A DNA stretch of 38,770 nt, taken from the NCBI GenBank assembly GCA_017471925.1, contig JAFURM010000016.1:1-38770 (forward strand). The letters are read 5' to 3'. Source of the stretch: Bacteroides sp. Lineage in GTDB: Bacteria; Bacteroidota; Bacteroidia; Bacteroidales; Bacteroidaceae. Shown here piece after piece: positions 10,694 to 33,266 of this stretch (the stretch's first letter is position 1; each line of letters begins with the position of its first letter). The notes under the pieces are model-generated. The model had not been told where the DNA came from. It ran no database searches and worked only from the letters and a program-made list of their open reading frames with translations. A program made the position numbers and the translations under genes.

Positions 10694-10803
10694 GGAACTG
10701 CACGCACTTTTTGTCGGAACTGTGTGTGGTTCTTGTGGAAATTGCATGCAGTTTGAGGAGAAATGGCGTGTAATTCCGGCCGGAACTGTACGCCATTCCG
10801 AAG
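10694..10803. repeat. 22-bp palindrome array A, upstream of frd
   Basis: Five consecutive 22-bp units start at 10694, 10716, 10738, 10760 and 10782. Cores are GGAACTGCACGCAC, GGAACTGTGTGTGGTTC, GAAATTGCATGCAGTTT, GAAATGGCGTGTAATTCC and GGAACTGTACGCCATTCC. Each approximates a dyad with GGAA/TTCC arms around an alternating purine-pyrimidine centre. Spacers of 4-6 bp differ. The array begins 44 bp upstream of the frd -33 element and encodes nothing. Confidence 0.75.
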
Positions 10804-10876
10804 TCTTTTCCGTTTCCCCTGTTTTTAAAAAAATGTATTTCGTAACATATAACATCGCCTTGTGTGTGGGAATGTC

Positions 10877-11004
10877 AGAACCTGTTTTGAATTTATTCCT
10901 TTCCTTTATTATCCGCTTTCCCTGAGTCTCTTTTCGGTTCTTTCGTCCGTTCTTTCTCGAAAAGACTCCTCATGAAAAAGCAGAATAAATTCAAAACAGG
11001 TTCT
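10877..11004. repeat. MITE-like element, complete copy
   Basis: A 128-bp element is bounded by perfect 22-bp terminal inverted repeats: the left arm 10877-10898 begins AGAACCTGTTTTGAATT and the right arm 10983-11004 is its exact complement. An inner imperfect pair (GAGTCTCTTTTCG and CGAAAAGACTC) would extend the stem. It has no ORF. Related sequence or ends are at 141-289, 12663-12684 and 35513-35534. No obvious target-site duplication is visible. Confidence 0.72.
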
Positions 11005-11383
11005 CAAACGCTCCCTTTTTGCTTAAAAACGACTGTTTAGATGCTGTGTTTAATATATTTATCATGTAGTAATAAATATATAGCCCCTATTCCCCTCTCT
11101 TTTAAGCCCCATTTCAGCGATGAAATGAGTTTTGCTGCATTATAAGGTGAAAAGGCCTGTTTTCTTTCTTGAAAACGGCCTTTTCTCTCGAAAACACTCA
11201 GGTGATGTTACATGTTATATGTTATAAAACTAAAAATAGGTTGATTGGGAAACTACGATTCTTTAATGGGAGTTAAGCAGAGGTGATTATCCCTACAAAA
11301 TTTCGGGTCTATTCCCAGAGTGGAATATATGTCTTATCTTCGCCTCAATAAAACGAGACACAAACACTTCAAAAACGAATCGT
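11005..11383. other. AT-rich intergenic region with hairpins, no gene
   Basis: I see no coding region here. It holds a strong hairpin (11150-11184), a small one (CATTTCA-GCGA-TGAAATG, about 11110-11128), an ATGTTACATGTTATATGTTAT stretch with short direct repeats near 11204-11225 and a plus-strand promoter-like TATCTTCG at 11335. The latter faces the 3' end of the minus-strand GH43 gene. Confidence 0.5.
11150..11184. terminator. strong hairpin, possible terminator at the PUL 3' end
   Basis: AAAAGGCCTGTTTTC and GAAAACGGCCTTTT pair almost perfectly with one bulge and a short loop. The A/T-flanked stem could act on either strand. On the minus strand it lies about 210 bp past the GH43 stop, the last PUL gene. 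Confidence 0.5.
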
Positions 11384-11395
11384 ATGATGCTGCTT

Positions 11396-12538
11396 TCATT
11401 TTTTCTTTTTCTGTCGTTCTATCTCTGGCATTCCGGTCTCCGGATTCATGCGGATGGGAATCCACAGGTGGCCGGAGTACATGAGGCTACGGGGATGCCA
11501 CACGTCGGCCATGAATATCCAACCACCGCCCTGCTTGGCGGGGAGGGGGAGGATGAAGGTGCTCTGTCCGCCAAAGGTACGTTTGGCTCCCGGCCCACGC
11601 ATGGGCGAGGGGTGTTGCTGCCACGGTCCCCAGATGGAGGGGGCGGAGAAGAGGCGTGCTTCGTTGGGCTCCCATCCCGTGCAGCCTGATGCGATGAGCC
11701 AGTAGGTGCTCGTAGCGGGGTCGTGGAAGATGGCCGGTGCCTCGTTGTGGCCGCCGGGGAAGAGGCGGATGTAGCGGCCCGTGTGGCTCAGGTAGTTGTC
11801 AGAGAGTTCGGCGATGTGCAGTGTCAGGTTCTCTTCCGAGGAGTAGATGTGATAGGCCCGGCCGTCGGCGGGGTCTTGGAAGAGCGTCATGTCGCGCGAC
11901 ATCTGTCCGTCCTGCAGGTCGCGCTGCACGAAGAGTCCCTGCTCCACGGCCTGACGCCACTGGGGAGTCCACCACTCCTTTACCTCCTCGGCGGGAAATT
12001 GGCGGGTGCGGTTTTCGGCAGGCATGTTCAGCGGCCACTGCCCGGGGTTGACGCGTGTGGAGCGCACAAAGTGGTAGGGACCTTCGGGACGGTCGGCCAC
12101 GGCCACACCGGCGCGTGCCGCCTCATAGCCTCGTCCGCGCAGCTCTAAGTGGAACCACATGACGAACTGGCGCGTCTCTTCGTTGTAGAGCACCTTGGGC
12201 CGTTCCATGATGCAGCCGCGCGAAATCTCGCTCAGGGTGTCGGTGGTGCAGACACTGAGGGCGATGCCTCGGTGCTTCCAGTTCTTCAGGTCGCGCGAGG
12301 AGTAGCAGTTGATGCCTTCGGTCGTGGCAAAGCCGCGTTCGGGGCGATGCTCGCCAAACCAGTAGTAGGTGCCCTTGTGGAGCAGGATGCCGCCGCCGTG
12401 GGCGTTGATGTAGCGTCCTTCCGTGTCTAACCAGGCCGTAGTGTCGGGCGGCAGGGGACGTTCGTGACGCGCAGCAGGGCCTTGCCCATAGACAGGCAGG
12501 CACAGGAGAAGGAGGAGGAGGGGAAGAAGGTGGGGCAT
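11396..12538 (-). CDS. glycoside hydrolase family 43, subfamily 24/34-like (exo-beta-1,3-galactanase / galactofuranosidase-type)
   Basis: Exported five-bladed propeller enzyme of 380 residues with a hydrophobic signal (LLPLLLLLLCLPVYGQG). NAHGGG (45-50), INCYSSRDLKNW (76-87), ERPKVLYN (112-119), HNEAPAIF (264-271) and FGGQSTFILPL (322-332) match the GH43 group that includes fungal exo-beta-1,3-galactanase. There a glutamate acts as the acid (E266 here by position) and a glutamine (Q325) replaces the usual aspartate base. An insertion at about 165-212 (WPLNMPAEN to GQMSRDM) is typical of Bacteroides homologues. The family's C-terminal tryptophan-rich end appears clipped to IERQKKKK. It is the last gene of the PUL and its only hydrolase. 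Substrate is inferred to be a galactan or arabinogalactan-type linkage. Confidence 0.85.
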   Translation of the reverse strand: MPHLLPLLLLLLCLPVYGQGPAARHERPLPPDTTAWLDTEGRYINAHGGGILLHKGTYYWFGEHRPERGFATTEGINCYSSRDLKNWKHRGIALSVCTTDTLSEISRGCIMERPKVLYNEETRQFVMWFHLELRGRGYEAARAGVAVADRPEGPYHFVRSTRVNPGQWPLNMPAENRTRQFPAEEVKEWWTPQWRQAVEQGLFVQRDLQDGQMSRDMTLFQDPADGRAYHIYSSEENLTLHIAELSDNYLSHTGRYIRLFPGGHNEAPAIFHDPATSTYWLIASGCTGWEPNEARLFSAPSIWGPWQQHPSPMRGPGAKRTFGGQSTFILPLPAKQGGGWIFMADVWHPRSLMYSGHLWIPIRMNPETGMPEIERQKKKK

Positions 12539-12573
12539 GAGGAATTATGGATTATGAATTTTGAATGATGAAT

Positions 12574-12650
12574 TTAGGCACGGATGACACGGATTTTCAC
12601 GGATTTTAGGTATGTTCTAAAACCGTTTTCTCCCTGCTATCCGTGCCTAA
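12574..12650. repeat. 77-bp inverted repeat with ACACGGAT blocks
   Basis: TTAGGCACGGAT at 12574-12585 is exactly complementary to ATCCGTGCCTAA at 12639-12650. Inside are CACGGATGACACGGATTTTC and a further CACGGATT. A related fragment with ATCCGTGTATTCATCCGTGT lies at 23878-23902. Such CACGGAT repeats look like dispersed intergenic elements. They encode nothing. Confidence 0.55.
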
Positions 12651-12652
12651 GG

Positions 12653-12684
12653 GAACTGTTCTGAATGAATTCAAAACAGGTTCT
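12653..12684. repeat. solo or collapsed end of the MITE-like element
   Basis: GAATGAATTCAAAACAGG... ending at 12684 matches the right terminal arm of the 10877-11004 element with one mismatch. The preceding GAACTGTTCTGAAT resembles a degraded left arm, so the two ends may be joined directly into a short hairpin. It lies between the discoidin lipoprotein and GH43 genes. Confidence 0.5.
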
Positions 12685-12706
12685 CAAAACAACTTGGGAT
12701 GAAAGA

Positions 12707-13588
12707 TTATTCTTCCATCGTTTCGGGGTCGTAGACTTCCACTGTTACGTCATAGAAGTAGAACTCGGCGAAGCAGTAGTAGCTGGCTGAGCCAGTGGCG
12801 GAGGTCACGACATAGCGCAGGTGCTTGAAGCCGAAGCCGGGCATGATGTAGTTCGTGGTGTACTCACTGCCGGCGCTGCTGGGCAGGCTGCTCAGGGTGC
12901 TGACGGACTGCCAGTCGGTGCCGTTGGCGCTGACCTGCAGCTCCACGGAGGCCGGACGGCCCGAGGTACGCCATCCGTCGTCCGTGCGGTTCACGTAGCC
13001 GATGGCGAAGTTCTCATGTTCTTCGGCAAAGTCCACCTGGATGTAGCTGGGATAGGTGGTGCCGCTGCCGTGCCAGTTGCTGGAGAAGAAGGTGCCGGTG
13101 CTTCCGTCCACCAGGTGCTTCAGCTGACCCTCTGAGGAGTCGGCCTGGTCGGCCGAAATCTGCGAAACATCCAGCTCCACCTTAGTGCGGCCCTTCTCCG
13201 TGTAGGTGGCGGGTGCGGCTCCCGAACGGGCCTTCACCTGAACCGTCTGGCCGCCCTCATGACGGGCGTTGAAGGTCTGGAAGTTGAAGGTGTAGTCGCC
13301 ATAGCGGGCGCGGGTGTTGTCAATCAGCAGTTCACCGGTGGTGTTGGAGCAGATTTGGCAGACATCCTTGTCCTGGAGCGGGTCGTGATAGCTTATCTTC
13401 ACGTACTCATATCCCTCGTTGGGCGTCCAGGTGAGCTTGATTTGTCCCGGCAGAGCCTCGCCCTGCACGCTTGAGGCCTCGATGGCCACGGGTGCCTTGT
13501 CGCTGCCCGTCACCTCGAAAGTCTCCAACTTGTCGTCGCATCCTGCCAAAGCCATCAGCAGGCAGGAGCCTAATATGATTCTTTTCAT
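12707..13588 (-). CDS. surface lipoprotein with Ig-like and discoidin (F5/8 type C) domains
   Basis: Lipoprotein of 293 residues with signal peptide and lipobox LAGC, giving the mature N-terminal CDDKLETFE. Residues about 30-125 form a fibronectin type III or Ig-like domain (IKLTWTPNEGYEYVKISY, as in DUF4959/DUF4998-type proteins). Residues about 135-285 look like a discoidin/CBM32-type beta-sandwich: HLVDGSTGTFFSSNWH, YIQVDFAEEHENFAIGYVNR, SVELQVSANGTDWQSVS and FKHLRYVVT. It lies 33 bp after susD2 in the same direction, the usual place for a surface glycan-binding protein of a PUL. No catalytic motif is visible, so the role is likely to hold polysaccharide at the outer membrane. Confidence 0.85.
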   Translation of the reverse strand: MKRIILGSCLLMALAGCDDKLETFEVTGSDKAPVAIEASSVQGEALPGQIKLTWTPNEGYEYVKISYHDPLQDKDVCQICSNTTGELLIDNTRARYGDYTFNFQTFNARHEGGQTVQVKARSGAAPATYTEKGRTKVELDVSQISADQADSSEGQLKHLVDGSTGTFFSSNWHGSGTTYPSYIQVDFAEEHENFAIGYVNRTDDGWRTSGRPASVELQVSANGTDWQSVSTLSSLPSSAGSEYTTNYIMPGFGFKHLRYVVTSATGSASYYCFAEFYFYDVTVEVYDPETMEE

Positions 13589-13621
13589 TGAATATACGGT
13601 TTATTTGAAGTTTATACTGTC

Positions 13622-15289
13622 TTACCAGCCCGGATTCTGCGTCAGCTTGGGGTTCTTGCGGATTTCAGAGTCGGGGATGGGGAAGAGATACATCTTGTCG
13701 TTCCACACGAGTTCCTTGTTGCTCTTGTTGTAGCTGAAGGTGTCGTCGCCGGTCTTCGTGATGGTCATGCGGCTGATGGAGGTGAAACCGTCCTCTTTCC
13801 AGCGGCGCACGTCCCAGAAGCGGTGGCCTTCGAAGGCCAGCTCTACCATGCGCTCGCGCTTGTAGCGGGTCCAGAATTCGCTGCCCGTCATGCCTTCGGG
13901 GAAGGCGGGCATCTTCACGCCCTGACGGTCGCGCACCACGTTCACGGCTTCGCGGGCTGTCAGGTCGAGGTCGCCCTCGGTCAGGTCGGCACCGCCCAGA
14001 TACTGATACATGGCCTCGGCATAGTTCAGGTAGAACTCACCCAGACGGAAGGTCACCCAGCTGTGGCGCTTGCCGCCCGTGCCCGTTCCGGCGCTGATGT
14101 CGATGGAGCCGTCCAGATACTTCTTCAGGTAGTAGCCGGTGGGAGTGGCATAGGGGATGGGCATGCCGTTGCGTCCGCCTACGTAGGTCTCCAGCGGATA
14201 GGGGTTGGTGTCGGGCCACTTGTCGCCGTTTACGGCGATGGTCATGCCCATGCGCGGGTCGCGTCCGCTGTAGGGGTTGTTGGGGTCGGGTTCGCCACCG
14301 TTCTTCATCTCATAGGCATCCACCAGCGTCTGTGTGGGGCAGTTGCCCGAGTTGGCGTTCTCCATGCCGATGGGGAAGTTGTACCACTCCGGAGAGTTGG
14401 TATCGCCTACGCGGCGGGCGAAGATGACTTCGGCAGCCTTGTAGTTGCCGGTGCCCCACAGGTCGGTGTATTTGCCCAGCGTGATGCCGTTCTCGGCACA
14501 GTAGTCGATGACCGCCTTGTTGGCCTGGGCAGCAGCGTGCCACAGGTTCTTGTCGCCGCTCTCGTTGAAGAGCTTGCTGGCACGGTACAGGGCGGCGCGG
14601 GCCTTCAGGGCCAGGGCCATTCCGCGTGTCACGCGGCCCGTCTCCGGGTTGCTCGTGCCACCGGCAGCATCGTTCTCTATGCCCGAGTAGGTCACGGGCA
14701 GTTCGGGTGCCACGGCGTCACACTCCTTGATGATGAAGTCGAACACCTCGTCGGCCGGCGTGCGTTCCATGTTGTTGGCCTCGGCCTCGGTCAGCACGGT
14801 GGTGGTGAAGGGCACATCGCCATAGGCACGCACCAGCAGGAAGTAATAGTAGGCACGGAGCAGGCGCACCTCGTAGGGGTAGCGCTTGTAGCGGTTCATC
14901 TGTGACTCATAGTCCTGCGTGAAGCGCAGGTCGTAGAAGTCGCGGTCCACGCCCTCGGTCAGGAAGTAGTTGGCCGCACGGATGCCGCTGTAGTAGCTCC
15001 ACTGTGACTTGGGGTTCAGGGCACTCCAGCCACCGTTGGTATAGTCGCGCACGCTGCTGTAGGTGATGGCCATCTCGGCCTCGTCGCAGGCCGAAGCCAG
15101 CGAGTTGAGTCCGGGCAGGTCATAGTCCAGATAGGAATAGATGTTGTTCACGAACCCGGCTGTGCGACCGAAGTCGGTGAAGACATACTCCTTGTCGTAG
15201 GAAGTATATTCATGGTAGTCCATCTTGTCCGAGCAAGCCGTCAGGGCGGCCAGGCAGGCAATTCCGGCACATATATTCTTCAGTTTCAT
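13622..15289 (-). CDS. SusD-family nutrient-binding lipoprotein (susD2)
   Basis: Lipoprotein of 555 residues with lipobox ALTAC at about residue 19, expected on the outer leaflet of the outer membrane as the lid of its SusC partner. The N-terminal SusD region shows the TPR-type helical pattern (RLLRAYYYFLLVRAYGDVPF). The C-terminal RagB/SusD hallmark is present in FRLGEFYLNYAEAMYQYLGG, RERMVELAFEGHRFWDVRRWK and the ending LFPIPDSEIRKNPKLTQNPGW. Length is normal and no defect is seen, although the upstream susC2 carries an in-frame stop. It starts 37 bp after susC2. If susC2 is not functional, this protein would lack its cognate transporter or pair with susC1. Confidence 0.95.
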   Translation of the reverse strand: MKLKNICAGIACLAALTACSDKMDYHEYTSYDKEYVFTDFGRTAGFVNNIYSYLDYDLPGLNSLASACDEAEMAITYSSVRDYTNGGWSALNPKSQWSYYSGIRAANYFLTEGVDRDFYDLRFTQDYESQMNRYKRYPYEVRLLRAYYYFLLVRAYGDVPFTTTVLTEAEANNMERTPADEVFDFIIKECDAVAPELPVTYSGIENDAAGGTSNPETGRVTRGMALALKARAALYRASKLFNESGDKNLWHAAAQANKAVIDYCAENGITLGKYTDLWGTGNYKAAEVIFARRVGDTNSPEWYNFPIGMENANSGNCPTQTLVDAYEMKNGGEPDPNNPYSGRDPRMGMTIAVNGDKWPDTNPYPLETYVGGRNGMPIPYATPTGYYLKKYLDGSIDISAGTGTGGKRHSWVTFRLGEFYLNYAEAMYQYLGGADLTEGDLDLTAREAVNVVRDRQGVKMPAFPEGMTGSEFWTRYKRERMVELAFEGHRFWDVRRWKEDGFTSISRMTITKTGDDTFSYNKSNKELVWNDKMYLFPIPDSEIRKNPKLTQNPGW

Positions 15290-15325
15290 ATATATCTGTT
15301 CGTTTTTATAAGTTAAACTATCGGT

Positions 15326-18343: not shown

Positions 18344-18407
18344 ACTGTTTGTTTCCTGATATATGGTTTCTTGAAAAAAACGTTTGTAGCCTCAGAGAGG
18401 GCGTGGA

Positions 18408-20370: not shown

Positions 20371-23300
20371 TCAGAATCCAAGTTTCAGACCGAGGTTGAA
20401 CACGCGGGTCAGCGGATAGTTGGGACGGTCGCTCTGGCGTGACTCGGGGTCACTCCACTTGAAGTTGGTGAAGGTGAGCAGGTTGTAGCCGTTCAGGTAG
20501 AGGCGGCAGTTGTTCAGCTTCAGCTTCTTCATGAAGGGGAAGTCGAAGTTGTAGCCCACTTCCACGCTCTTCAGGCGCAGGTAGCTGGCGTTTTCCAGGT
20601 AGAGGTTGCTGATGGCGTAGTTGTTGTTGGCATGGTCGCTGCTGGCGCGGGGGAACTTGGCGGTGAAACTGTCGTCAGAGCTGCGCCAGGTGTTCTCGTA
20701 CTGATAGAGCAGGAGGCCCTTCTCGTTGGTGTCGCCCAACGGACGGCGGAACTCGCTGAGCATGCGGTCCACGTTCCAGGCACCGGTCCACTGCATGGAG
20801 AAGTCCAGCTTGCCCCACTGGAAGCCCATGTTGAGGCCGGCGGTGTACTCGGGCACATCGGTGAAGCCGATGTCGCGGGTGGCGTCGTTGCCATCCAGCT
20901 TGCCGTCCTTGTTCAGGTCCACGTAGACGGCGTCGCCATAGACCAGCGAGATACCGTGGTCGGCGATGGGCTGGCCGAACTCTTCCTGATAGCGGGCGTC
21001 GGCGTTTTCGTCATAGAAGCCCCAGAACTTGTACATGGAGCGGGAGTTGATGCGACGGCCGGTCTGATACATCCAAGGCTCGTTCTGTGCCACTTCGTTC
21101 ATGTAGACAATCTTGTTGCGGGCAAAGGAGATGTTGGCGTTGGCCCAGTAGCGGAAGTCGTCGCTCAGGCGGTCGTTCCATTTCAGTTGCAGCTCGTAAC
21201 CCTTGTTCTCGGTCTCGCCCACGTTCACTACGGGGAGTGACATACCCAGGATACCGGGCAGGTAGTCGGGGGTGACGAGGATGTCCTTACGCTTCTCGAT
21301 GAAGTAGTCGGCCGAGAAGGTGAGTCGTTCGTTCAGCACGGTGAAGTCGATACCGTAGTTCTGCTTCACGGCTGTCTCCCACTTGGCGTCGGGGTTGGAC
21401 TTGGTGGCCTCATAGGCACCGGGCTTGATGCTGCCCACGTTCTGGCCGAAGTAGTAACCGTCGTTGCGGCCTGTGCCGTAAGTGTACTTGTCGGGCACGT
21501 AGAGGAAGCGGCTGGCGCTGCTCTTGTCGTTACCCACCATACCCACGGAGGCACGCAGCTTCAGGTAGCTCACCACTTTCTTCAGCGGGGCGAAGAAGGG
21601 CTCTTCGCTCACCACCCAGCCCAGTGAACCGGCGGGGAAGAAGCCGTAGCGGTTGTCGGGGTGGAAGTTTTCGGAACCGTTGTAGCCGGCGTTGAACTCG
21701 GCCATGTAGCGGGTCTTCCAGTCATAGGTGACGCGGCCCACGATGCCTACGTAGCCCGAGGGAATGTAGGTGTAGGTGCCGCCGGGATAGTATTTCTTGC
21801 TCTGGTTGTAGAGCAACAGACCGCTCACGTTGTGGTCGCCGAACTTGCGGTTGTAGTTCACGGCCAGCTCCATGTACCAGTCACGGGCCTTGCCGAAGCT
21901 GCCGTCGCTGTAGCTCAGCTGGCTGTCGCTGCCCTCCTTGCGGTAGGAGATGCTGCCGTCGCTGCCCACCACGGGCACATAGTAGGCCATGGACGAGCTG
22001 GCCACCTTGGTGTTGGAGTAGCTGGAGTTGTAGGAGCCTTTCAGCTTCATGGAGAGACCCTTGGTGATGAAGTCCAGCTTCTGGTCCAGCACGAGGTCCA
22101 GGTTCAGCACGTTGGTGGTGCGGGTGCGGAAGCCCTTGCCATAGTAGGAGGAGAGACCGTCGGTTCCGGTGAAGGGCAGGTAGTCGGTGTTGGAGACTAC
22201 GCGGTTGCCGTCCACGATACCGGCGCCGGCGAAGGGCACGGCCCAGTAGAGCTTACGGAAGAGTTGGTTCTGGTCTTCGCCCGATTCGGGAGTACGCTTG
22301 GTCTCCACGCGGCCGCCGATGTTCACGGAGAGCAGGGTGCTCTTGGTCACGTCGAAGTCCAGGTTGGCGCGGTAGTTGTAGCGGTCATAGTCGAAGTTGA
22401 AGTCGTCGGATGCGTTGAACTGCTTGAACATACCGTTCTGGCTGAACATACCGGCCGACACGAAGTAGCGCATGCGGTCTGTTCCGCCCGAGATGTTCAC
22501 GTTGTGCTGCGACTGGATGGCAGCCTTGTTCATACAGTAGTCAATCCAGTTGATGTCGGGGTAGAGGATGGGGTCTGTATGGTTGCGGAAGGCATCCAGC
22601 TGCTCCTGTGAGAAGAGCGGCTCCAGGCCGTCGTTGGTCTTCATCATATTGTAGTATTCGGCATACTGGTAGGAGTTGGCAAACTCCAGCTCCTTGGTGC
22701 GCACGTTCACACCCACTGACGTGGAGAACGAAATCTTGGCCTTGCCCTCGGCTCCGCGCTTGGTGGTGATGAGGATAACGCCGTTGGCACCGCGCACACC
22801 GAACACGGCTGTGGCCGAAGCATCCTTCAGCACCGTGATGCTCTCAATTTCGTTGGGGTCAATCTGTGAAAAGTCGCGCTCCACGCCGTCCACCTGAATC
22901 AGCGGTGAGGCGTTTTCCCATGTGGCGATACCGCGCACATAGATGTCGGCCGCGTCGGCACCCGGCTCGCCGGAGTACTGCACGGAGGAGATACCCGTCA
23001 TCTGGCCCGAGAGGATGTTGGACACAGAGCCGGCAGGCGTCTTCAGCAGGTCGTCGCCCTTCATGGAGGAGATGGCACCCGTGATGGAGACCTTCTTCTG
23101 AACGCCATAGGCCACTACCTGCACCTCGCCTAGCACCTGGGAGTCTTCTTCCAGGACGATGTTGAGGGTGGTTGCCTTCTTGATGACCACTTGCTGGTCC
23201 TTGTAGCCGATGTAGCTGATTTGGAGCGTTGAGCCTACAGGTACATTGAGGGAGAAGTTACCGTCTATGTCGGTAATCACACCGGTGGTTGTTCCCACCA

Positions 23301-23526
23301 CCGTCACATTGGCTCCGATGACTGTCTCACCGGTAGCATCCTTGACCGTTCCGGTCACTTTCACTGTCTGCTGCTGTTGCACCGCTTCGGCAAGGGGAGA
23401 CTCCTCGGCCCAGGCTTGCAAGGGGGCAGACACGGACAAGGCCAGCAGCAGGGCGGCCGATAAGAGACGGCGCCAGCCGGAGGTTTGTCCTGCACGTTGT
23501 AAATGGAAGATTTTCTGCTTTTCCAT
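20371..23526 (-). CDS. SusC-family TonB-dependent outer-membrane transporter (susC1)
   Basis: TonB-dependent glycan importer of 1051 residues from the ATG at 23526. The longer ORF from 23553 adds nine residues in front of the MEKQK signal sequence and is less likely. After the signal peptide comes a carboxypeptidase-like Ig domain (VKVTGTVKDATGETVIGANV...), then a TonB-box-like segment (EVQVVAYGVQKK), the plug domain with DIYVRGIATWENASPLIQVD (a tryptophan is present in this loop) and SITVLKDASATAVFGVRGAN, and the beta-barrel ending NLGLKLGF. All parts look intact. It is the first structural gene of the PUL, divergent from nothing and downstream of a promoter-like element and putative regulator sites at 23629-23720. 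It should import oligosaccharides with susD1. Confidence 0.96.
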   Translation of the reverse strand: MEKQKIFHLQRAGQTSGWRRLLSAALLLALSVSAPLQAWAEESPLAEAVQQQQTVKVTGTVKDATGETVIGANVTVVGTTTGVITDIDGNFSLNVPVGSTLQISYIGYKDQQVVIKKATTLNIVLEEDSQVLGEVQVVAYGVQKKVSITGAISSMKGDDLLKTPAGSVSNILSGQMTGISSVQYSGEPGADAADIYVRGIATWENASPLIQVDGVERDFSQIDPNEIESITVLKDASATAVFGVRGANGVILITTKRGAEGKAKISFSTSVGVNVRTKELEFANSYQYAEYYNMMKTNDGLEPLFSQEQLDAFRNHTDPILYPDINWIDYCMNKAAIQSQHNVNISGGTDRMRYFVSAGMFSQNGMFKQFNASDDFNFDYDRYNYRANLDFDVTKSTLLSVNIGGRVETKRTPESGEDQNQLFRKLYWAVPFAGAGIVDGNRVVSNTDYLPFTGTDGLSSYYGKGFRTRTTNVLNLDLVLDQKLDFITKGLSMKLKGSYNSSYSNTKVASSSMAYYVPVVGSDGSISYRKEGSDSQLSYSDGSFGKARDWYMELAVNYNRKFGDHNVSGLLLYNQSKKYYPGGTYTYIPSGYVGIVGRVTYDWKTRYMAEFNAGYNGSENFHPDNRYGFFPAGSLGWVVSEEPFFAPLKKVVSYLKLRASVGMVGNDKSSASRFLYVPDKYTYGTGRNDGYYFGQNVGSIKPGAYEATKSNPDAKWETAVKQNYGIDFTVLNERLTFSADYFIEKRKDILVTPDYLPGILGMSLPVVNVGETENKGYELQLKWNDRLSDDFRYWANANISFARNKIVYMNEVAQNEPWMYQTGRRINSRSMYKFWGFYDENADARYQEEFGQPIADHGISLVYGDAVYVDLNKDGKLDGNDATRDIGFTDVPEYTAGLNMGFQWGKLDFSMQWTGAWNVDRMLSEFRRPLGDTNEKGLLLYQYENTWRSSDDSFTAKFPRASSDHANNNYAISNLYLENASYLRLKSVEVGYNFDFPFMKKLKLNNCRLYLNGYNLLTFTNFKWSDPESRQSDRPNYPLTRVFNLGLKLGF

Positions 23527-23628: not shown

Positions 23629-23636
23629 CAAAGGTA
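23629..23636 (-). promoter_or_regulatory. candidate -7 element of the PUL promoter upstream of susC1
   Basis: The minus strand reads TACCTTTG, a full TAnnTTTG match, about 100 bp before the susC1 ATG. No good TTTG is seen at -33, as expected for a promoter that depends on an activator bound just upstream. Confidence 0.55.
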
Positions 23637-23720: not shown

Positions 23721-23726
23721 TCTTTC

Positions 23727-23814
23727 GCCCCTATACGCACGGCCTTTTGCCCCTATACGTATGCTCTTTCGTCCATACACGTGTGGCCCGTCGTCCATAC
23801 ATGTGTGGTCCAAA
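23727..23814. repeat. 22-bp palindrome array B, upstream of susC1
   Basis: Four units start at 23727, 23749, 23771 and 23793. Cores are CCCCTATACGCACGGCC, CCCCTATACGTATGCTC, GTCCATACACGTGTGGCC and GTCCATACATGTGTGGTCC. Dyad symmetry is clear in the last three. Two weaker units (23683-23704 and 23705-23726), with GGAAT/ATTCC and GAAT/ATTC arms, may extend the array toward susC1. The last two units closely match array C at 33157-33266. Confidence 0.75.
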
Positions 23815-23902: not shown

Positions 23903-23935
23903 TAAAACTGTCAATTGTCAACTATCAATTGTCAA

Positions 23936-26900
23936 TTATCCCTCACTTCTTCCCGTTGCGAAGCGTTCCAGATATTCCGTGGGTTGCATGCCAAATTCGC
24001 GCTTGAAGCAGGAACTGAAGTACTTGGGATCGTTGAAGCCCACGGCATAGGCCAGGTCGGAGATACGCACCGAGTTGCCTTTCTCCTCCATGATGCGGCA
24101 GGCCGCTTTCAGACGGATGTTGCGGATGAAGGCCGAGGTGTTGAGGCCGGTGAGCGACTTCAGCTTCTTGTAGAGCGTGCTCTTGCTGGTGTTCATCTCT
24201 TCCACGAACTGCTGCTGGTCGAACTCGCAGTCCTCCAAGTGGCGGTTCACGCAGTCTATGGCCCGCTGCATGAAGTCTTCGTCCAGGCTGGTGTAGTTCA
24301 GCTCCTTCACTTCGAAGACCAGCTGGTTCTTGAAGTCGCGTGCCGACCGCTCCTTGTTCTTCAGCAGGTTGCGGATGCGGGCATGGAGCACGATGAGGTT
24401 GAAGGGCTTGGTGATGAAGGCGTCGGCTCCCACCTCGTAGGCTTCGGCACGGTCTTCTTCCTTGGTCTTGGCCGTGAGCAGGATGACGGGGATGTGGCTG
24501 ATTTCCAGCTTGCTCTTCACGTAGCGGCAAAGCTCTATGCCGTCCATGACGGGCATCATCACGTCGGAGACGATGAGGTGTACGTCTTCGTTCTCCACCA
24601 CGGTGACGGCCTCCTGTCCGTTCTCGGCAGTCAGCACGTTGTAGTCGCGCTTCAGCAGGCGCACCATGAGCTGCAACAGCTCTTCGTTGTCCTCCACCAC
24701 GAGGATGGTGTGCTTCTTCTGCGCCTCGCCGGAGGGGTTCTCGTTGCCGCTCTCCTCGGGCATGGGCGTGGCGGTGATGGTGCGTTGCACGGGCAGGGCA
24801 GCGTCTTCGTCCACCTGTTCCTCCTTGAAGTAGGAGCGTTCGATGGGCAGCGTGACGATGAACTCCGTGCCCTTGTCCGGTTCGCTCTCCACCCTGATGC
24901 TGCCGCCGTGCAACTTCACCAGGTCGCGCGTCAGCGAGAGGCCGATGCCGGTGCCGATGGTGCCCACCTTGCGGTAGTCGCCCTCATAGAAACGCTTGAA
25001 GAGGTCTTCCTGCTTCTGCTTGGAGATGCCGCGTCCGCTGTCTTTCACGCAGAGGCACACGTAGTCGGGGTTGTCGGCCCGCTGCAGTGTCACCTGTATG
25101 AAGCCGCCGTCTTTGTTGTACTTGGCGGCGTTGGAGAGCAGGTTGTAGAGAATCTTGTCCAACTTGTCCGTGTCAAAGTAGCCCCGGATGGACTCGGGGT
25201 CGCACAAGACGGAGAAGTGCAGCTTCTTGCGCTTGATGAGCGGCAGGAAGGCTTCGGCCTCGTTCTTCACGAAGGCGGCCAGGTCGCCCGGCGAGACGCG
25301 CAGCTTCAGGTTGCCCGTCTCGGCCTTGCGGAACTCCAGAATCTGTTGCAGCAGGCGGATGAGGCGGTTGATGTTGGTGCTGATGACCGTGTAGAGCTCG
25401 CCGTGGCCCGGTGCCTGCAGCTTCAGCTCGTCCACGGTGGCCGAGATGATGGTGAGCGGTGTCAGCAGTTCGTGGGTGATGTTGGTGAAGAACTGCAGCT
25501 TGATGTGGTTCAGCTCCTCCAGCTTGGACTTCTCCATTTCGCGCAGGCGCAGTTCGCCTTGCAGGAGGATGCGGTTGTGGCTGGTGCGATAGAGGAAGTA
25601 GACCAGCAGGGCGGTCACTATTATATATATAAGGTATGCCCACCAGGTGGCCCATAGGGGTGGCAGCACCACGACGGTCAGTTCGCGCGTCTCGGTGCTC
25701 CAGATGCCGTTTTCGTTGGTGGCCCGCAGGCGGAAGCGGTAGGTGCCGCTCTCCAGGTTGTTGTAGTAGGCGAAGCGGCGGCCCACGTCGGTATATTGCC
25801 ACTCGTTGTCGAAGCCCACGAGCTGGTAGGCATAGCGGTTCAGCTCGGGATTCTTGTAGGTGAGCGAGGCAAACTCAATGCTGAAGTTGTTGTACTGGTA
25901 GGGCAGGCGTATCTCCTGGGTGAAGGAGGGCGTGAGTGGCGAAATCTTCTCCCGCAGTTCAGGCTCCAGGGAGGAGAGCGAGTGGTTGAAGATTTTAATG
26001 TCGGTAATCAGGTAAGGCACCGTCTCCTGACGTTCCTTCAGTTCGTCGGGCTGGAAGCTGTTGTAGCCCTTGTGTCCGCCGAAGAGCATCTTGTCGCCCC
26101 AGGTGCAGGAAGAGACAGAGATGAAGTTGTCCAGCAGGCCGTCGGCCGTGGTGTAGACGCGCGTGGTGAAGAGGTTGGTGTCGGCACCCACGTTGAGCTT
26201 CACCAGACCGTTGTTGGTGCCCAGCCAGAGGCAGCCCGAACAGTCTTCCTCGATGGAGCCGATGAGGTCACCGGGGATGTTGTAGTCGCGGCTCTTCTCT
26301 TCGAAGCGGTTCTTTTCGCGGTTGTAGAGGTGCAGTCCGCTGCCTTCGGTTCCTGCCCACAGGCGTCCGCGTTTGTCCACGTGCAGGGCCAGCACGGAGT
26401 TCACCGTGAGTTGTCCGTTCATCAGGCTGTAGTTGCTGTAGGTCAGTGTTTCGGGATGGCGCACGTCGCCCTCGATGTGGATGATACCGCAGTTGCGGGT
26501 GGCCAGCCAGATGCTGCCATCGGTGTCCTCCACGATGTTGATGACGTAATACCACTCCAAGGGGGCTGCGTTCTTGCAGTTCAGGATGCCGAAGCGGTGG
26601 AATGTGCCGTCGGCATAGCTGACGCCGGCACCGCCACGGCAGCCGGCCCAGAGGTTGCCCCGGCTGTCCTCGAAGAGCGCGGAGACGCAGTGGGAGTAGA
26701 GGTAGGGCGCGTTGGCCTCCGTCAGGTTCTTCACCTTCTCCCCCTTGCGGTAGACCAGGATGCCGCCGTCATAGGTCCCCACCCACACCTCACCGTTCCT
26801 GCGCTGCATGATGGCATTGACGGTAGGAATGCGGGTGATGTGGGCAAACTCCGGCAGACCGGTGAAGAAGACGGTCTCGCCCGTGTCGTAGTTCTTGCGG

Positions 26901-28081: not shown

Positions 28082-28104
28082 ACTTATTAGAGTTAAAGCA
28101 CGCA

Positions 28105-28112
28105 CAAAGATA
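28105..28112 (-). promoter_or_regulatory. candidate -7 element for the HTCS gene
   Basis: The minus strand reads TATCTTTG, matching TAnnTTTG, 23 bp before the ATG at 28081. This leaves only a short leader and argues against the upstream GTG start. Confidence 0.55.
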
Positions 28113-28177
28113 ATGAACCAAACGCGTCTGCGGGTAGATTTTTATCTTTTTTAGGCGTATAAAGACGGATTTTCCCT

Positions 28178-28185
28178 TATCTTTG
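28178..28185 (+). promoter_or_regulatory. candidate -7 element for the PAP2 gene
   Basis: TATCTTTG matches TAnnTTTG, 55 bp before the ATG at 28241. No exact TTTG is present at -33. The GTG at 28196 lies too close to this element to be the start. Confidence 0.5.
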
Positions 28186-28240
28186 CCCTGTCTCTGTGCG
28201 GGCAGAGGCGCATGTCAAACCGCTTATCCGATTAGTGATT

Positions 28241-28843
28241 ATGAAGAAAATGCTCCTTTTCATCGTGTTTTTCTCTCTGCAGGTGTTTCCGGCCGTGGCT
28301 CAGAACTGGGACATCAACACCCTTCACAAGGTGAACAGCTGGGACGGGAAACTGGTGCGCAATTACAATAAGTTCATCTCGAAGAGCGAGCCTTACGTAG
28401 CCGTGGGTGTGCCCGTGGCTATGGCTGTGGCAGCCTGGATAAAAGACGATAGGGAACTGCTGAAAGATGCCGTCTATGTGGGCACTTCCGTGGCCAGCAC
28501 CTTTATCGTGACCTATGGCATGAAGTACACCTTTGACCGTCGTCGCCCCTATGAACGCTATCCCGACCGTGTGCATCCCTATAGCTATGAGGATTCCCCC
28601 TCTTTCCCCTCCGGGCATACCTCCACGGCCTTCGCCCTGGCCACTTCGCTCAGCATCAAGTATCCCAAGTGGTATGTCATTGCCCCGTCAGCTTTGTGGG
28701 CCTGCTCCGTGGGCGTGTCGCGCATGAACGAGGGTGTACACTATCCCTCCGATGTGCTGGCCGGTGCAGCCATCGGTGCCGGTTGTGCCGTGGCCAATAT
28801 CTACATCAACAAGTGGCTGAACCGTTGGCTCTTCGGCAGATGA
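28241..28843 (+). CDS. PAP2-family phosphatase (phosphatidic-acid phosphatase type 2)
   Basis: Protein of 200 residues from the ATG at 28241, chosen because it gives a normal signal peptide (MKKMLLFIVFFSLQVFPAVAQ). A GTG at 28196 would add 15 residues. The three acid-phosphatase motifs are intact: KYTFDRRRP (95-103), PSGH (123-126) and SRMNEGVHYPSD near 160-171, with the histidine nucleophile in the last. A hydrophobic stretch at 54-66 and another near 170-185 suggest membrane association. The enzyme likely dephosphorylates a lipid phosphate (phosphatidate or an isoprenoid/lipid A-type phosphate) on the periplasmic side. It lies divergent from the regulator and convergent with the S41 protease, so no operon partner tells the substrate. 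Confidence 0.92.
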   Translation: MKKMLLFIVFFSLQVFPAVAQNWDINTLHKVNSWDGKLVRNYNKFISKSEPYVAVGVPVAMAVAAWIKDDRELLKDAVYVGTSVASTFIVTYGMKYTFDRRRPYERYPDRVHPYSYEDSPSFPSGHTSTAFALATSLSIKYPKWYVIAPSALWACSVGVSRMNEGVHYPSDVLAGAAIGAGCAVANIYINKWLNRWLFGR

Positions 28844-28892
28844 AATCAGCCTGAAAAATGAACAAATGTTCCTGTCTTGATGCGCTTCTCGT

Positions 28893-30500
28893 TTACTTTA
28901 TTGATGGGGACCCCATCAGCTTCTCATAGCTGCCGTCGGTCAAGACCCGCAGGGCTTCCTGCACCACGTCGTCCGTGGCGTTCATCACCTGGAAATACTC
29001 GTTCATGTCCCACAGGTCACGGGCCAGAAGAGCCTTGAGCTGCGTCTTGATGAGAGGAAGGGAGTGCTCATACTGCTCCTGCCGGAATGCAACGTTCTCC
29101 TTCTCGGCGGTGGCGAGGAGGTCGGCAAGCAGGGCATCGTCCACCTGGAACTTCTCGTTGAAGTTCTGGAACTTCTTGTAGGTGGCCAGCAACTCCTTGC
29201 GGTGCTGCTCAATGTACTTCATGGTGGTCTTGATGACGACTCCCTTGGCAACCAGGTTGCGGTGGTAGTCGGTGTAGCGGGCGGTGTCCATGGGCACGAA
29301 GATGTCGGGCATGATGCCGCCACCGCCATAGACAGTGCGCTGCAGGCGCTTGGTCTGATACTTCAGGGAGTCGGGGAAGTGGATGCTGTCGGCATGCATC
29401 AGCTCGCCCCGGTTGAAGCGGTTGATGAGGTCGCGGCTATATGCCTCCTGTCGTTGCTCGGCACTGTTGCCCTCATACGGCTTCTGGATGCAGCGGCCGG
29501 CGGGGGTATAGTAGCGGGCCACGGTGAGGCGCATCATGGAGCCGTCGGGCAGGTCAATGGGGCGTTGCACGAGTCCCTTGCCGAAACTGCGGCGGCCCAC
29601 CACCACGCCACGGTCCCAATCCTGCAGGGCACCCGTCACAATCTCGCTGGCCGAGGCCGAATATTCATCCACAAGCACGGCTATGCGTCCCTCCTGAAGG
29701 TTGCCGTTACCCTTGGCCCGGAACTCCTGACGGCGCGAGTTGCGCCCTTGGGTGTAGACAATCAGCGAGTTGTACTGCAGGAACTCGTTGGCCAGGTCGA
29801 TGGCTGCATTCAGATAGCCGCCCCCGTTCTCCTGCAGGTCCAGGATGAGGTCGTTCATCCCCTCCTTCTTCAGCCTCTTCATGGCTGTGAGAAACTCCTC
29901 GCTCGTGGTGGCACCGAAGCGGTTGATGCGGATGTAGCCGATTCGGGGAGCAATCATGTAGGCCGCATCCAGGCTGTGGATGGGAATCTTGTCGCGCTTC
30001 ACGGTGAAGGACAACGGTTCGTTCACGCCACGGCGCACCACAGTGAGCCGAACTACCGAGCCTTTGGGACCGCGAAGGCGGCCCATGATTTCCTCTTGAG
30101 GCATCTTCACACCGGCAATGGCGGTGTCGTTCACGGCTGTGATGCGGTCGCCGGCCAGGATGCCCACCTTCTCTGACGGGCCGTTGCTCACGGGCTGCAC
30201 CACGAGCAGCGTGTCTTCAATCATCTGAAACTGCACGCCGATACCTTCGAAGTTGCCCTGCAGCGGTTCGTTCATCTTCTTCACCTCCTCGGCATTGTTG
30301 TAGGTGGAGTGGGGGTCCAGCTGTTTCAGCATGCCGATGATGGCCTCTTCCACCAGTTTCTCCTCACTGATGGAGTCTACATAAAGGTTGGCGATGGCAA
30401 ACTCGGCCAGTTGCAGTTTGCGGAGGTGCTCCTTGTTTCGCTGGGCATGGAGAAACGCTGTGCAGAGCAGGAGGGCAAGCAGAAGGATATTTCTTTTCAT
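28893..30500 (-). CDS. S41-family C-terminal processing protease
   Basis: Exported serine protease of 535 residues with signal peptide (LLLALLLCTAFLHAQ). A helical N-terminal segment contains LDPHSTY (61-67), a PDZ domain spans about 85-165 (GIGVQFQMIEDTLLVVQPV), and the protease core has the catalytic serine in EYSASASE (S283) and lysine in RSFGKGLVQ (K308), 25 residues apart as in Prc/CtpA. The C-terminal 120 residues form an extra helical domain (QRQEAYSRDLINRF...) found in Bacteroidetes homologues. It should cleave C-termini of exported proteins in the periplasm. It follows coaD by 47 bp and likely shares a transcript with parE and coaD. Confidence 0.95.
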   Translation of the reverse strand: MKRNILLLALLLCTAFLHAQRNKEHLRKLQLAEFAIANLYVDSISEEKLVEEAIIGMLKQLDPHSTYNNAEEVKKMNEPLQGNFEGIGVQFQMIEDTLLVVQPVSNGPSEKVGILAGDRITAVNDTAIAGVKMPQEEIMGRLRGPKGSVVRLTVVRRGVNEPLSFTVKRDKIPIHSLDAAYMIAPRIGYIRINRFGATTSEEFLTAMKRLKKEGMNDLILDLQENGGGYLNAAIDLANEFLQYNSLIVYTQGRNSRRQEFRAKGNGNLQEGRIAVLVDEYSASASEIVTGALQDWDRGVVVGRRSFGKGLVQRPIDLPDGSMMRLTVARYYTPAGRCIQKPYEGNSAEQRQEAYSRDLINRFNRGELMHADSIHFPDSLKYQTKRLQRTVYGGGGIMPDIFVPMDTARYTDYHRNLVAKGVVIKTTMKYIEQHRKELLATYKKFQNFNEKFQVDDALLADLLATAEKENVAFRQEQYEHSLPLIKTQLKALLARDLWDMNEYFQVMNATDDVVQEALRVLTDGSYEKLMGSPSIK

Positions 30501-30547
30501 GTGCGTATGTTCTTATGGGATTGTTCTTGTGGGGGATGGGGTCTCTT

Positions 30548-31009
30548 TCAGCGTTTGGGCTGTTCCATGCCTTCGGGCAGGAAGCGGCTCACGTCTTTAC
30601 CGTAGCGCATCAGTTCGCGCACAATGGTGGAACTGACGCAGGTCATCTCGGGCTCGGTAAAGAGCAGGATGGTTTCAATGCCGGTGAGCTTGCGGTTCAC
30701 GTCGGCAATGGTCTCCTCATATTCAAAGTCTTTCACCGTGCGGATGCCGCGGATGATGATGTTGGCCCCTACCTCTTGGGCAAAGTCAATGGTGAGGCTG
30801 CTGTAGGAGGCCACCTTGACGCGTGGTTCGTTCCGATAGTAGCGGCGAATCATCTCTTCGCGCTGCTGGATGGCCAGGTGGGCGTTCTTCTTGTCGTTGA
30901 TGCCGATGGCAATCACTACTTCGTCAATGAAGGTCAAAGCCCGCTTCACTATTGAGGCGTGGCCTATGGTGAAGGGGTCGAATGTTCCGGGAAATATGGC
31001 TTTGGTCAT
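30548..31009 (-). CDS. coaD: phosphopantetheine adenylyltransferase
   Basis: Cytoplasmic enzyme of 153 residues that converts 4'-phosphopantetheine and ATP into dephospho-CoA, the penultimate step of CoA synthesis. It is a small nucleotidyltransferase: [10 protein letters not shown] (8-17) holds the T/HxGH motif with the catalytic histidine at 17, and the C-terminal VSSTIVRE is the ISSTxxR motif. [14 protein letters not shown] is the conserved substrate-binding region. Length is standard. It starts 7 bp after the parE-like stop, so the two are cotranscribed. No relation of function to topoisomerase is implied. The arrangement looks like a housekeeping operon. Confidence 0.97.
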
Positions 31010-31016
31010 TGGGCTT

Positions 31017-32945
31017 TCAGTTTTCCACCACGTCTTCTTCTATGACGAGGTTGTTGATGATAAAACCTTGGCGTTCCATGGTGTTCTTGCCCATGTAGAA
31101 CTCCAGCAGTTCCTTTACCGAGTCGGTCTTTCGCAGGGAGACTTGTTCCAGGCGGATATCCTTGCCGATGAAATGGCGGAACTCGTCGGGCGAAATCTCA
31201 CCGAGACCTTTGAATCGGGTGATTTCGGGATTGGGACCCAGCTCGTCGATGGCGGCCTGGCGTTCCTCTTCGCTGTAGCAGTAGCTGGTCTTCTTCTTGT
31301 TGCGCACACGGAAGAGAGGGGTCTGCAGGATGTAGACGTGCCCTTTCTTGATGAGGTCGGGGAAGAACTGCAGGAAGAAGGTGAGCATCAGCAGGCGGAT
31401 GTGCATGCCGTCCACATCGGCATCGGTTGCCACGATGACGCGGTTATAGCGCAGTCCTTCGATGCCGTCCTCTATGTTCAGCGCGGCTTGCAGCAGGTTG
31501 AACTCTTCGTTTTCATAGACCACCTTCTTGGTGAGGCCGAAGGTGTTCAGCGGTTTGCCTCGCAGGGAGAAGACGGCCTGTGTGTTCACGTCGCGGCTCT
31601 TCGTGATGGAGCCGCTGGCCGAGTCGCCCTCGGTGATGAAGATGCACGAGTCGTTCTCCTGCTCTTTGCCCTTGCCGTCGTTCAGGTGGTAGCGGCAGTC
31701 GCGCAGTTTGCGGTTGTGCAGGTTGGCCTTCTTGGCCCGCTCGCGGGCCAGTTTGGTCACTCCGGCGATGGCCTTGCGCTCTTTCTCAGACTCCTGAATC
31801 TTCTGCAGCATGGCTTCGGCCACCAAGGGATGCTTGTGCAGGTAGTTGTCCACTTCGGTCTTGATGAAGTCGCCTACAAACTTGTTCACTGTGGGGCCGG
31901 CCGGTTTGTTCTCCTGCGGAATGGCGGGCCACATGTTGTTGCTGCCCAGCTTGGTCTTCGTCTGGCTCTCAAACATCGGCTCTTCCACGTCGAGGGCAAT
32001 GGCGGCCACGATGCCGTTGCGGATGTCGGAGTATTCCTGGTTCTTGTTGAAGAACTCCTTGATGGTGCGGGCGATGTGTTCTTTCAGGGCACTCTGGTGC
32101 GTACCGCCTTGCGTGGTGTGCTGGCCGTTGACGAAGGAGTAGTACTCTTCGCCATACTGGTTGGTGTGGGTGAAGGCGATTTCGATGTCTTCGCCCTTCA
32201 GGTGTACGATGTCGTAGAGCCCCTCGGCGGTCATGTTGTCTTTCAGCAGGTCTTCCAGGCCGTGGCGCGAGAGGATGCGCTGTCCGTTGTAGAGGAAGGT
32301 AAGCCCCGTGTTCAGGTAGGTGTAGTTGCGCAGCAGCGTCTCCACGAACTGGTTCTGGAAGCTGTAGTTCAGGAACAGCGTGTTGTCCGGTTCAAAGAAG
32401 ATGTAGGTGCCGTTCTCTTCATTGGTGTCCAGGGTCTCGTCGGAGAGCAGTCTGCCTTGGGCGAAGGTGGCCCGCCGCACTTTGCCGTCGCGGTAGCTGG
32501 CCACTTCGAAGCGGCTGCTCAGGGCGTTTACCGCCTTGATGCCCACACCGTTCAGACCTACGCTCTTCTTGAAGGCTTTGGAGTCATATTTGCCGCCTGT
32601 GTTCAGCTTGCTTACCGCTTCGATGAGTTTGCCTTGCGGGATGCCCCGGCCATAGTCGCGCACACTGACGCGCAGGCTGTCTTCGATGTTCACCTCGATT
32701 CGCTTTCCGGCACCCATCTTGAACTCGTCGATGCTGTTGTCCATCACCTCTTTCAGCAGCACGTAGATGCCGTCATCGCTCTGCTGTCCGTCGCCCAAGC
32801 GGCCGATGTACATACCCGAGCGCACACGGATGTGCTCCATGTCTTCCAGATGTCGGATTTGCGCGTCATCGTAGGTCACATTGCTGTCGTTGTTTGCTGT
32901 TGCCGTCTCTTCCAGCGGCAGTCCTATGCTATTGTTATCTTCCAT
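31017..32945 (-). CDS. parE: type IIA topoisomerase ATPase subunit, topoisomerase IV ParE-like
   Basis: ATPase and TOPRIM subunit of 642 residues from the ATG at 32945 (MEDNNSIG). The open frame continues upstream to 33230 but that part only translates repeat DNA and lies above the promoter. GHKL motifs are [10 protein letters not shown] (66-75), GRGIPQGK and [10 protein letters not shown]. The transducer region follows, then TOPRIM with EGDSASG (about 438) and [10 protein letters not shown] (about 510). Length suits GyrB/ParE. I prefer ParE because of the Bacteroidetes sequence style and the coaD neighbour, but GyrB-type function cannot be excluded by eye. The partner A subunit is not in this window. 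A very good promoter lies 40 bp upstream, and a 22-bp palindrome array further up. Confidence 0.9.
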
Positions 32946-32984
32946 GGATTTGTTGCTGACGTGCCTGCTTATAGGCACTTTGGG

Positions 32985-33015
32985 CAAAAGTAAGGAGAAA
33001 ATCGGAGGTGGCAAA
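32985..33015 (-). promoter_or_regulatory. promoter of parE-coaD-S41
   Basis: On the minus strand TTTG (33012-33015), 19 bp, TACTTTTG (32985-32992) is a full match to the Bacteroides promoter consensus. The leader to the parE ATG is about 35 nt. This also shows that the ORF extension to 33230 is not translated from this promoter. Confidence 0.75.
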
Positions 33016-33156
33016 AAAAAGCACGTCTTTTTTGCGGGACTACGTCGGGAAGGGGGGCGGGATGACCCACTCCATGATGTAGCACTTCTCTTCTTTCCGT
33101 TGCCGGATGCAACACCCCGAACGGACAAGTCTGGAGCGGGGTATTTATGCCGTTTG

Positions 33157-33266
33157 AACCATACATGTCTCGTCCGTCGTCCGCACATGTGTGGTCCGCG
33201 GGCCAAACATGTATGGACGACGGACCACACGTGTATGGTCCAACGCCCTTCTACGTATGCCTGTAG
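33157..33266. repeat. 22-bp palindrome array C, upstream of parE
   Basis: Five units start at 33157, 33179, 33201, 33223 and 33245. Cores are AACCATACATGTCTCGTCC, GTCCGCACATGTGTGGTCC, GGCCAAACATGTATGGAC, GACCACACGTGTATGGTC and GCCCTTCTACGTATGCC. The consensus dyad is CCAYACRYGTRTGG. The array starts about 140 bp upstream of the parE -33 element and ends 29 bp from the 3' end of the GNAT-fold gene. The DNA between promoter and array (33016-33156) has no gene that I can see. Confidence 0.78.

Follow-up and report, generated by a model that had tools for sequence, protein, structure and literature searches.

Intergenic arrays with a 22-bp step and changing palindromes in Bacteroides, and their association with genes of the HU-HIG family

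Cooperative sites set about two helical turns apart are known from iteron arrays and phased operators, such as plasmid iterons and oriLambda. Here we describe an element that likewise has several sites at a spacing of about two turns, but that is dispersed on the chromosome and occurs in many sequence classes. It is represented three times (arrays A, B and C) in a 38,770-nt stretch of Bacteroides sp. DNA (contig JAFURM010000016.1, positions 1 to 38,770, assembly GCA_017471925.1); this stretch, over its full length, is called the window, and the assembly to which it belongs is called the own genome. Such arrays are real and numerous, they were present in each of the four Bacteroides genomes that we sampled, and they keep a geometric rule while their sequence is free. 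The arrays are also strongly linked to the leaders of genes of the HU-HIG family (Pfam PF18291; membership was assigned by Pfam score throughout), and we therefore treat members of this family as candidate readers. HU itself is a textbook DNA-bending protein of little sequence preference.

Repetitive extragenic palindromic (REP) sequences and bacterial interspersed mosaic elements (BIMEs), with their GTAG and CGTC families, are described in PMC3733652 as multi-copy, clustered intergenic palindromes that often lie at convergent or tandem gene ends, and in this they resemble the arrays. The arrays differ in their near-constant 22-bp step, in often having four units, in a palindrome that varies by class and species, and in their occurrence in HU-HIG leaders. 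BrickBuilt, a miniature inverted-repeat transposable element (MITE) of Porphyromonas gingivalis, is like the arrays an intergenic element of the Bacteroidales with a tandem repeat of nearly equal length (23 nt); according to PMC4596501 it has 19 copies in one strain, its parts being a leader, a tail and inverted ends of small size, with a single sequence for the repeat. By contrast, the arrays fall into many sequence classes, with a symmetric flank that ends at about 12-14 bp, and the stem "palindrom-" occurs nowhere in the main text of PMC4596501. Among the titles and abstract beginnings listed from the open-access literature we recognised no description of arrays of this kind or of array sites of HU-HIG proteins. 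The principle by which the arrays are likely to work, cooperative occupation of a phased operator, is familiar; for the combination of a fixed step, a near-fixed number of units, a free palindrome and an adjoining HU-family gene we found no precedent in that literature.

A fixed step in unrelated sequences

When the window was scanned with a score that counts matches in 66 comparisons at a given period, arrays A, B and C were the top three places at period 22, scoring 39/66 (from 10688), 50/66 (23721) and 45/66 (33155), respectively, and the fourth place scored 31/66. Across periods 8 to 60, at least 60% of the 66 comparisons matched in the window, besides at period 22, only at 23 (at the window start), 44 and 46. 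Tandem Repeats Finder reported period 22 for arrays B and C and did not call array A. An earlier note on this DNA had claimed three arrays with an exact 22-bp step and four to five units each, belonging to a family whose arms differ between arrays, and the scan bears this out: array A has five units, array B four (the two on the left degenerate) and array C four plus a degenerate fifth. The units of all three are imperfect palindromes. (Note that an 8-of-9 arm test, which covers even-centred palindromes only, was passed at nine places in the window, with no array unit among them.)

The units of array A define class A, and the motif CCATACAYGTGTGG of arrays B and C defines class B. With at most one mismatch allowed, the class B motif has 42 + 39 matches in the own genome versus 0 + 2 for the reversed control, and with two mismatches 94 + 92 versus 10 + 16; the class A motif, with up to three mismatches, occurs at 25 + 17 places versus 5 + 3 in the control. 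In a set consisting of 40 fetched stretches and the window, picked by motif matches and thus biased to class B, a weight matrix found 36 class B arrays (six single matches being excluded). Four units were present in 24 of these, five in seven, six in two, three in two and two in one, and the step between units was 22 bp in 108 of 115 cases, 23 bp in six and 44 bp in one. A class B unit has the core ACRYGT and outer arms with a free choice of C or G. In the arrays with four units, 24 in all, each position has its own type of half-site and dyad symmetry extends over the full 88 bp, the first half-site resembling the last and the second the seventh; a symmetric flank, AACGGCCATAAA when read outward, adds about 12-14 bp on each side, with no consensus farther out. 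Some same-side half-sites are more alike within class B arrays than between them (z +3.9 and +2.8). Other sequences with a 22-bp step were found in the flanks of class B stretches of the own genome.

The idea that one motif might serve all arrays was rejected: the class B motif was at background level in 147 relatives (88 of them congeners), and the GACAC pattern, which represents another class, had one match in the 251 genomes of a family draw that held only 17 genomes of the genus (the own genome included). A viral origin was likewise rejected, a two-unit class B pattern having no exact match in viral contigs. (The same pattern had no exact match in species genome contigs; from both collections records very near the window may be excluded.)

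The step, by contrast with the motif, is shared. The earlier note had proposed a scan of periodicity, which we ran on 20 evenly placed stretches of 20 kb (400 kb) per genome, counting as an intergenic array any place scoring at least 39/66; the genomes were the own genome, G040, G085 and G165 (all Bacteroides) and G103 (another family). Intergenic period-22 arrays numbered 7, 12, 14 and 4 in the four Bacteroides samples in the order just given. Period 22 was the commonest intergenic period in all four, with many unrelated palindromes among the arrays, whereas shuffled sequence gave no period-22 arrays and one at 37. Other periods from 15 to 40 were represented by one array or none, except in the own genome (three arrays at 21 and five at 23) and in G040 (two at 23 and seven at 33). 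No period-22 arrays were present in the G103 sample.

Arrays of other classes follow the same geometry. Eight arrays seen at the parE locus of 29 relatives keep the 22-bp step but differ in sequence, and the GAAAC class of G085 occurs at 150 places in that genome versus 29 in the control. The GACAC class (GACACYTGTGCTAAGTGTC) is represented in 31 stretches; among its carriers are Bacteroides sp. ET71, Candidatus B. merdipullorum, B. stercorirosoris, B. cellulosilyticus and Parabacteroides. At one locus shared by three species the array has pairwise conservation values of 0.95, 0.87 and 0.86 versus 0.76, 0.74 and 0.69 for the left flank; the right flank gave 0.93, 0.63 and 0.63, so that in one pair it is conserved like the array.

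In two four-unit GACAC arrays from two species (L098:4114 and L104:3963) the four loops differ together (CTGAT versus GTGCT) and the arms are kept. Judging from their flanks we take these arrays to be orthologous, with concerted evolution inside the array. Arrays resembling class B, with ACATGT cores and arms CGCAACATGTTGCG, were seen in another uncultured Bacteroides species (L140:6950, L149:5588 and L150:5169).

Arrays in the leaders of HU-HIG genes

Among the 1736 proteins encoded in the fetched loci, 214 adjoin an array, and the family with the most array-adjacent members was HU-HIG, with 9 of 11 (eight from GACAC-picked loci of related genomes and one from G085). Two clusters adjoined arrays in full (6/6 and 3/3), each consisting of the same loci in three related species; for the other clusters with at least three array-adjacent members the proportions were 3/4 (twice), 4/7, 3/9 and 6/37. 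No other DNA-binding family was prominent beside arrays among the 1736 proteins. Of the 31 stretches carrying the GACAC class, 8 have the array immediately in front of an HU-HIG gene. A search of 80 genomes of the genus supplied the 30 best-scoring HU-HIG loci, each from a different genome; a period-22 array (score at least 39) stood within 400 bp upstream in 28 of them, whereas 12 of the 1082 genes sampled for comparison had an array within 350 bp. The palindromes of these leaders vary by HU-HIG subfamily, and include ACTATAGT, CCTATAGG, CCACCATGGTGG, CCGACAGCTGTCGG and others.

In G085, where 31 of 33 HU-HIG matches were examined, 11 of the 16 frames of at least 200 aa had an upstream array, compared with none of the 15 shorter ones (p 7e-5); ten of these arrays have a 22-bp step and one a 23-bp step, and their palindromes are mostly different. 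Length and the Pfam description suggest that the long frames carry a winged helix, and an HU-HIG protein of the own genome has an HTH_IclR match slightly under the cut-off. As a forward test we turned to G118, which belongs to another family and has 18 HU-HIG matches. Of the 14 loci examined there, the five top-scoring ones had arrays, with scores of 45 to 56. G103, which had no period-22 arrays in its sample, yielded a single weak HU-HIG match, the size of an ordinary HU protein; in G117 and G129 one HU-HIG locus each was examined and had no array.

A TAnnTTTG element, which we take to be the Bacteroides -7 promoter consensus (its activity here being only putative), stands just before the array in 25 of 32 HU loci versus 17 of 268 in a control interval. 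The usual order is therefore promoter-like element, array, start codon.

The own genome has five HU-HIG matches, one of them of ordinary HU size. One long gene is preceded by four units of GACTCACnnnn(n)GTGAATC (identified by eye) with a mixed 22/23-bp step, a leader that reaches no more than 34 (at period 23) and so misses the threshold. Contigs C34 and C39 each carry this palindrome again, as four units with 22-bp steps that score 43. The copy on C34 (L321, G000:C34:38700-40800) precedes what by eye appears to be a decayed copy of that HU-HIG gene, where there is no such open frame of at least 60 aa; the copy on C39 follows a gene that, named from its sequence by reading alone, resembles an ATP synthase subunit. 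A second long HU-HIG gene has an upstream array of GATTCATAAGAATC with a 21-bp step. As for class B, a single array of the 36, in L087, has a TAnnTTTG element on one side and a gene start on the other; it heads a set of co-directed genes, among them an HU-HIG gene at a distance of 1.7 kb. This locus is suggestive of a tie between class B and HU-HIG rather than proof of one, and nothing comparable was found for class A.

Candidate readers and competing explanations

We propose that the arrays form a Bacteroides element of usually four near-palindromic units at a step of about two helical turns, on which neighbouring dimers of a DNA-binding protein would occupy the same side of the helix, so that their binding could be cooperative. 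The readers would be members of the HU-HIG family, that is, proteins with an HU domain and either a winged helix or a glycine-rich tail, each subfamily having its own palindrome. At the long-type HU-HIG genes, the position of the array between promoter-like element and start codon would most likely serve autoregulation, and the dispersed arrays, the three of the window included, would be distant HU-HIG sites with a role in organising or insulating transcription-unit ends. We put the probability that the arrays are cooperative binding platforms of HU-HIG-type proteins, and that those of the window are read by such a protein, at roughly 0.55. The earlier note had suggested, among other options, that an oligomeric DNA-bending protein uses the arrays as its platform; this is now the best reading and has candidate proteins. 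Phase, number of units, distribution in the sampled genomes, placement and the tie to HU-HIG leaders are observations; binding, cooperativity, autoregulation and the reading of the window's classes by an HU-HIG protein are inferences. A wider picture, of an undescribed code that organises the chromosome, can be offered tentatively, in which each genome would encode several sequence-specific HU-family proteins with their own palindromes, in 22-bp arrays of about four units, each gene being controlled by its own array and matching arrays marking gene ends along the chromosome; protein and palindrome would change together between species, with the phase kept.

Several observations weigh against this proposal. 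The palindrome classes of the own genome outnumber its five HU-HIG matches, and of the upstream regions of its HU-HIG genes two have no array and two have arrays with other steps (21 bp and mixed 22/23 bp). The C34 array beside the apparent decayed HU copy may be a relic. L087 is a single locus with two intervening genes and another TAnnTTTG element nearer to the HU-HIG gene, and that 1 of 36 arrays should fall within 2 kb of one of five HU-HIG genes by chance is not improbable. When 43 dispersed arrays were compared with 46 sampled HU leaders (the null being one permutation per array), only four resembled a leader more closely than the null did, in one case by a narrow margin; arrays A, B and C matched none of the 46. 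The 30 loci of the genus-wide comparison are the best-scoring ones and partly orthologous; nine other G118 loci lack an array, four of them with frames of more than 200 aa; and the GAAAC class of G085 has no array in the 31 HU-HIG upstream regions examined, where it is represented by one single palindrome. Finally, the lead of period 22 in the own-genome sample is small (7 versus 5), and 8 of the 12 period-22 arrays of G040 are, by eye, non-palindromic 11-bp direct repeats.

Part of this evidence speaks for another reader, such that the dispersed arrays would be platforms of a different dimeric DNA-binding family and HU-HIG proteins would bind the leader arrays only. That the dispersed, high-copy classes have such a reader of their own is to be reckoned with because 39 of the 43 dispersed arrays match no sampled HU leader and because the GAAAC class lacks one among the 31 of 33 HU-HIG matches examined in G085. 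We nevertheless consider it unlikely, albeit the best placed of the alternatives, given that no second DNA-binding family stood out near arrays and that three arrays outside HU leaders (L183, L226 and L232) clearly match HU-leader classes.

The placement of class B bears on a second alternative, in which the dispersed arrays would be gene-end elements like REP/BIME or MITE sequences, bound by gyrase or acting as RNA and spread by a transposase or gene conversion, and the HU-leader arrays would be a separate matter. Gene calls were made with a simple codon-usage script, and the control comprised 105 intergenic regions of at least 120 bp from evenly placed stretches of the own genome. Convergent gene ends accounted for 19 of the 36 class B arrays versus 14 of the 105 control regions (p 5e-6), and divergent ones for 1 of 36 versus 28 of 105 (p 0.0015), the remaining 16 arrays being tandem. 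The earlier claim that the arrays lie just upstream of promoters is thus not supported as a rule. A position mostly at 3' ends is what PMC3733652 reports for REPs, and tens of copies per genome, the symmetric flank of class B and the lack of a match between most dispersed arrays and the sampled HU leaders would suit such an element too. The convergent preference is not general, however, because 38 arrays of several classes in GACAC-picked loci comprised 27 tandem, 4 divergent and 2 convergent cases and 5 at edges; of six GAAAC arrays sampled in G085 one was convergent (by eye). Further points against this alternative are that the 22-bp step is common to HU leaders and otherwise unrelated sequences, that hairpin covariation is absent in class B, and that the REP-associated tyrosine transposase (RAYT; PF01797, Y1_Tnp) had no match in the own genome, which is 89% complete (no search was made for other transposases or in relatives), a further difference from REP/BIME systems. 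As to the tags of those systems, many class B half-sites read TCGTCC, which is not constant, and the class A pattern contains neither GTAG nor CGTC. We rank this alternative second and regard it, too, as unlikely. The arrays may yet be a selfish repeat, as the earlier note suggested: class B arrays are related to one another as wholes, are dyad-symmetric and have a short symmetric flank, but the own genome yielded no RAYT match.

The arrays could also act in the transcript, their palindromes and their leader position in HU genes being in keeping with hairpins in series that bring about termination, processing or attenuation, and GACAC units could fold as 7-bp stems with 5-nt loops. In 39 HU-leader arrays, palindromic pairing was 0.64 versus 0.52 for a column-permuted null, with a few arrays not above their own null. 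The mismatches on the transcript strand of these arrays were 83 G.U and 96 C.A (p 0.37); DNA is the likelier target than RNA because G.U mismatches are not in excess of C.A. Moreover, the arm pairs of long hairpins are less alike within than between the 24 four-unit class B arrays (L1:R4 z -3.1, R2:L3 z -2.6), RNA hairpins would have no need of a constant 22-bp step, and Rfam gave no match in the window at gathering scores. An RNA element is accordingly very improbable. A cruciform, another suggestion of the earlier note, is made less likely by the imperfection of the palindromes and by units whose outer arms are unlike.

Least probable of all is that the arrays are functionless by-products of slippage and template switching at palindromes, which would account for one rule across many unrelated sequences and for units of one array that change jointly (as in the loops of L098 versus L104), but sits poorly with units that diverge while the step stays (108/115), with an array at the three-species locus that is better conserved than its left flank (the right flank being equal in one pair), and with the strong tie to one gene family.

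The odds of the cooperative HU-HIG platform and of its competitors overlap and do not sum to one: one competitor shares its account of the leaders, and another can be the mode by which the arrays spread. If the HU-HIG proposal is true, abundant gut bacteria possess sequence-specific HU-like nucleoid proteins, a separate phased palindrome array going with each, and a function would be at hand for intergenic arrays of which a large genome may hold about two hundred (extrapolated from the 14 in 400 kb of G085). The HU-HIG link makes binding, spacing and occupancy concretely and cheaply testable.

The arrays of the window and further repeats

The positions of the three arrays and of the promoter-like elements beyond them are collected in Table 1. 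No HU-HIG match lies on the window's contig, so none of the three stands in an HU-HIG leader. The earlier note had each array upstream of a minus-strand promoter-like element; for the three of the window this stands, at the distances listed, but it does not extend to the family. The minus-strand frame next to array A has no Pfam match.

Table 1. Array units and putative promoter elements in the window
Feature	Position	Strand	Units or sequence	Basis or context
Array A	10694..10803		class A, GGAAnTGCRYGCAnTTCC-like; five units, at 10694, 10716, 10738, 10760 and 10782	exact 22-bp steps
Array B, left half	23725..23768		two degenerate units, CCCCTATACGCACGG and CCCCTATACGTATGC	phased with the right units
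Array B, right half	23769..23812		two class B units, tcgtCCATACACGTGTGGcccg and tcgtCCATACATGTGTGGtcca	weight-matrix matches 22 bp apart
Array C	33155..33242		four class B units, at 33155, 33177, 33199 and 33221	weight-matrix matches, exact 22-bp steps
Array C, fifth unit	33243..33264		degenerate unit, acgcCCTTCTACGTATGCctgt	sequence and phase
TAnnTTTG element	10619..10626	-		62 bp beyond array A, towards minus-strand frame 9842-10546
TAnnTTTG element	23629..23636	-		85 bp beyond array B, towards TonB-dependent-receptor gene 20371-23526
TAnnTTTG element	32985..32992	-		163 bp beyond array C, towards DNA_gyraseB-family gene 31017-32945

The left units of array B have no match to the class B weight matrix. 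Units of the CCCTATACGCATGG type, with a 23- or 22-bp step, adjoin class B arrays at L055:5893, L076:5765 and L080:6066 as well as at window 23725-23768, and are possibly a decayed or sister class of class B.

In G040, long intergenic stretches of 11-bp direct repeats, CTCCGTATMAC and AAACGGACTTG, were seen at seven loci (L157, L158, L160, L161, L163, L170 and L171); with one helical turn per unit, these are perhaps a one-turn version of the 22-bp rule.

Three further repeats were noticed in the window. At the contig end, positions 14-100 hold a 23-bp tandem repeat, TGAAGTATATATTACCTGACCGA. Another repeat, of 14 bp and dispersed, TTGATAATTGATAG, lies at 23906-23940 and was also seen in L055, L062, L063, L072 and L090. 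Lastly, a MITE-like inverted repeat, GAACCTGTTTTGAAT ... ATTCAAAACAGGTTC, is present at 10870-11000, one of its arms occurring again near 12680 (about 12660-12690) and a similar arm in L079.

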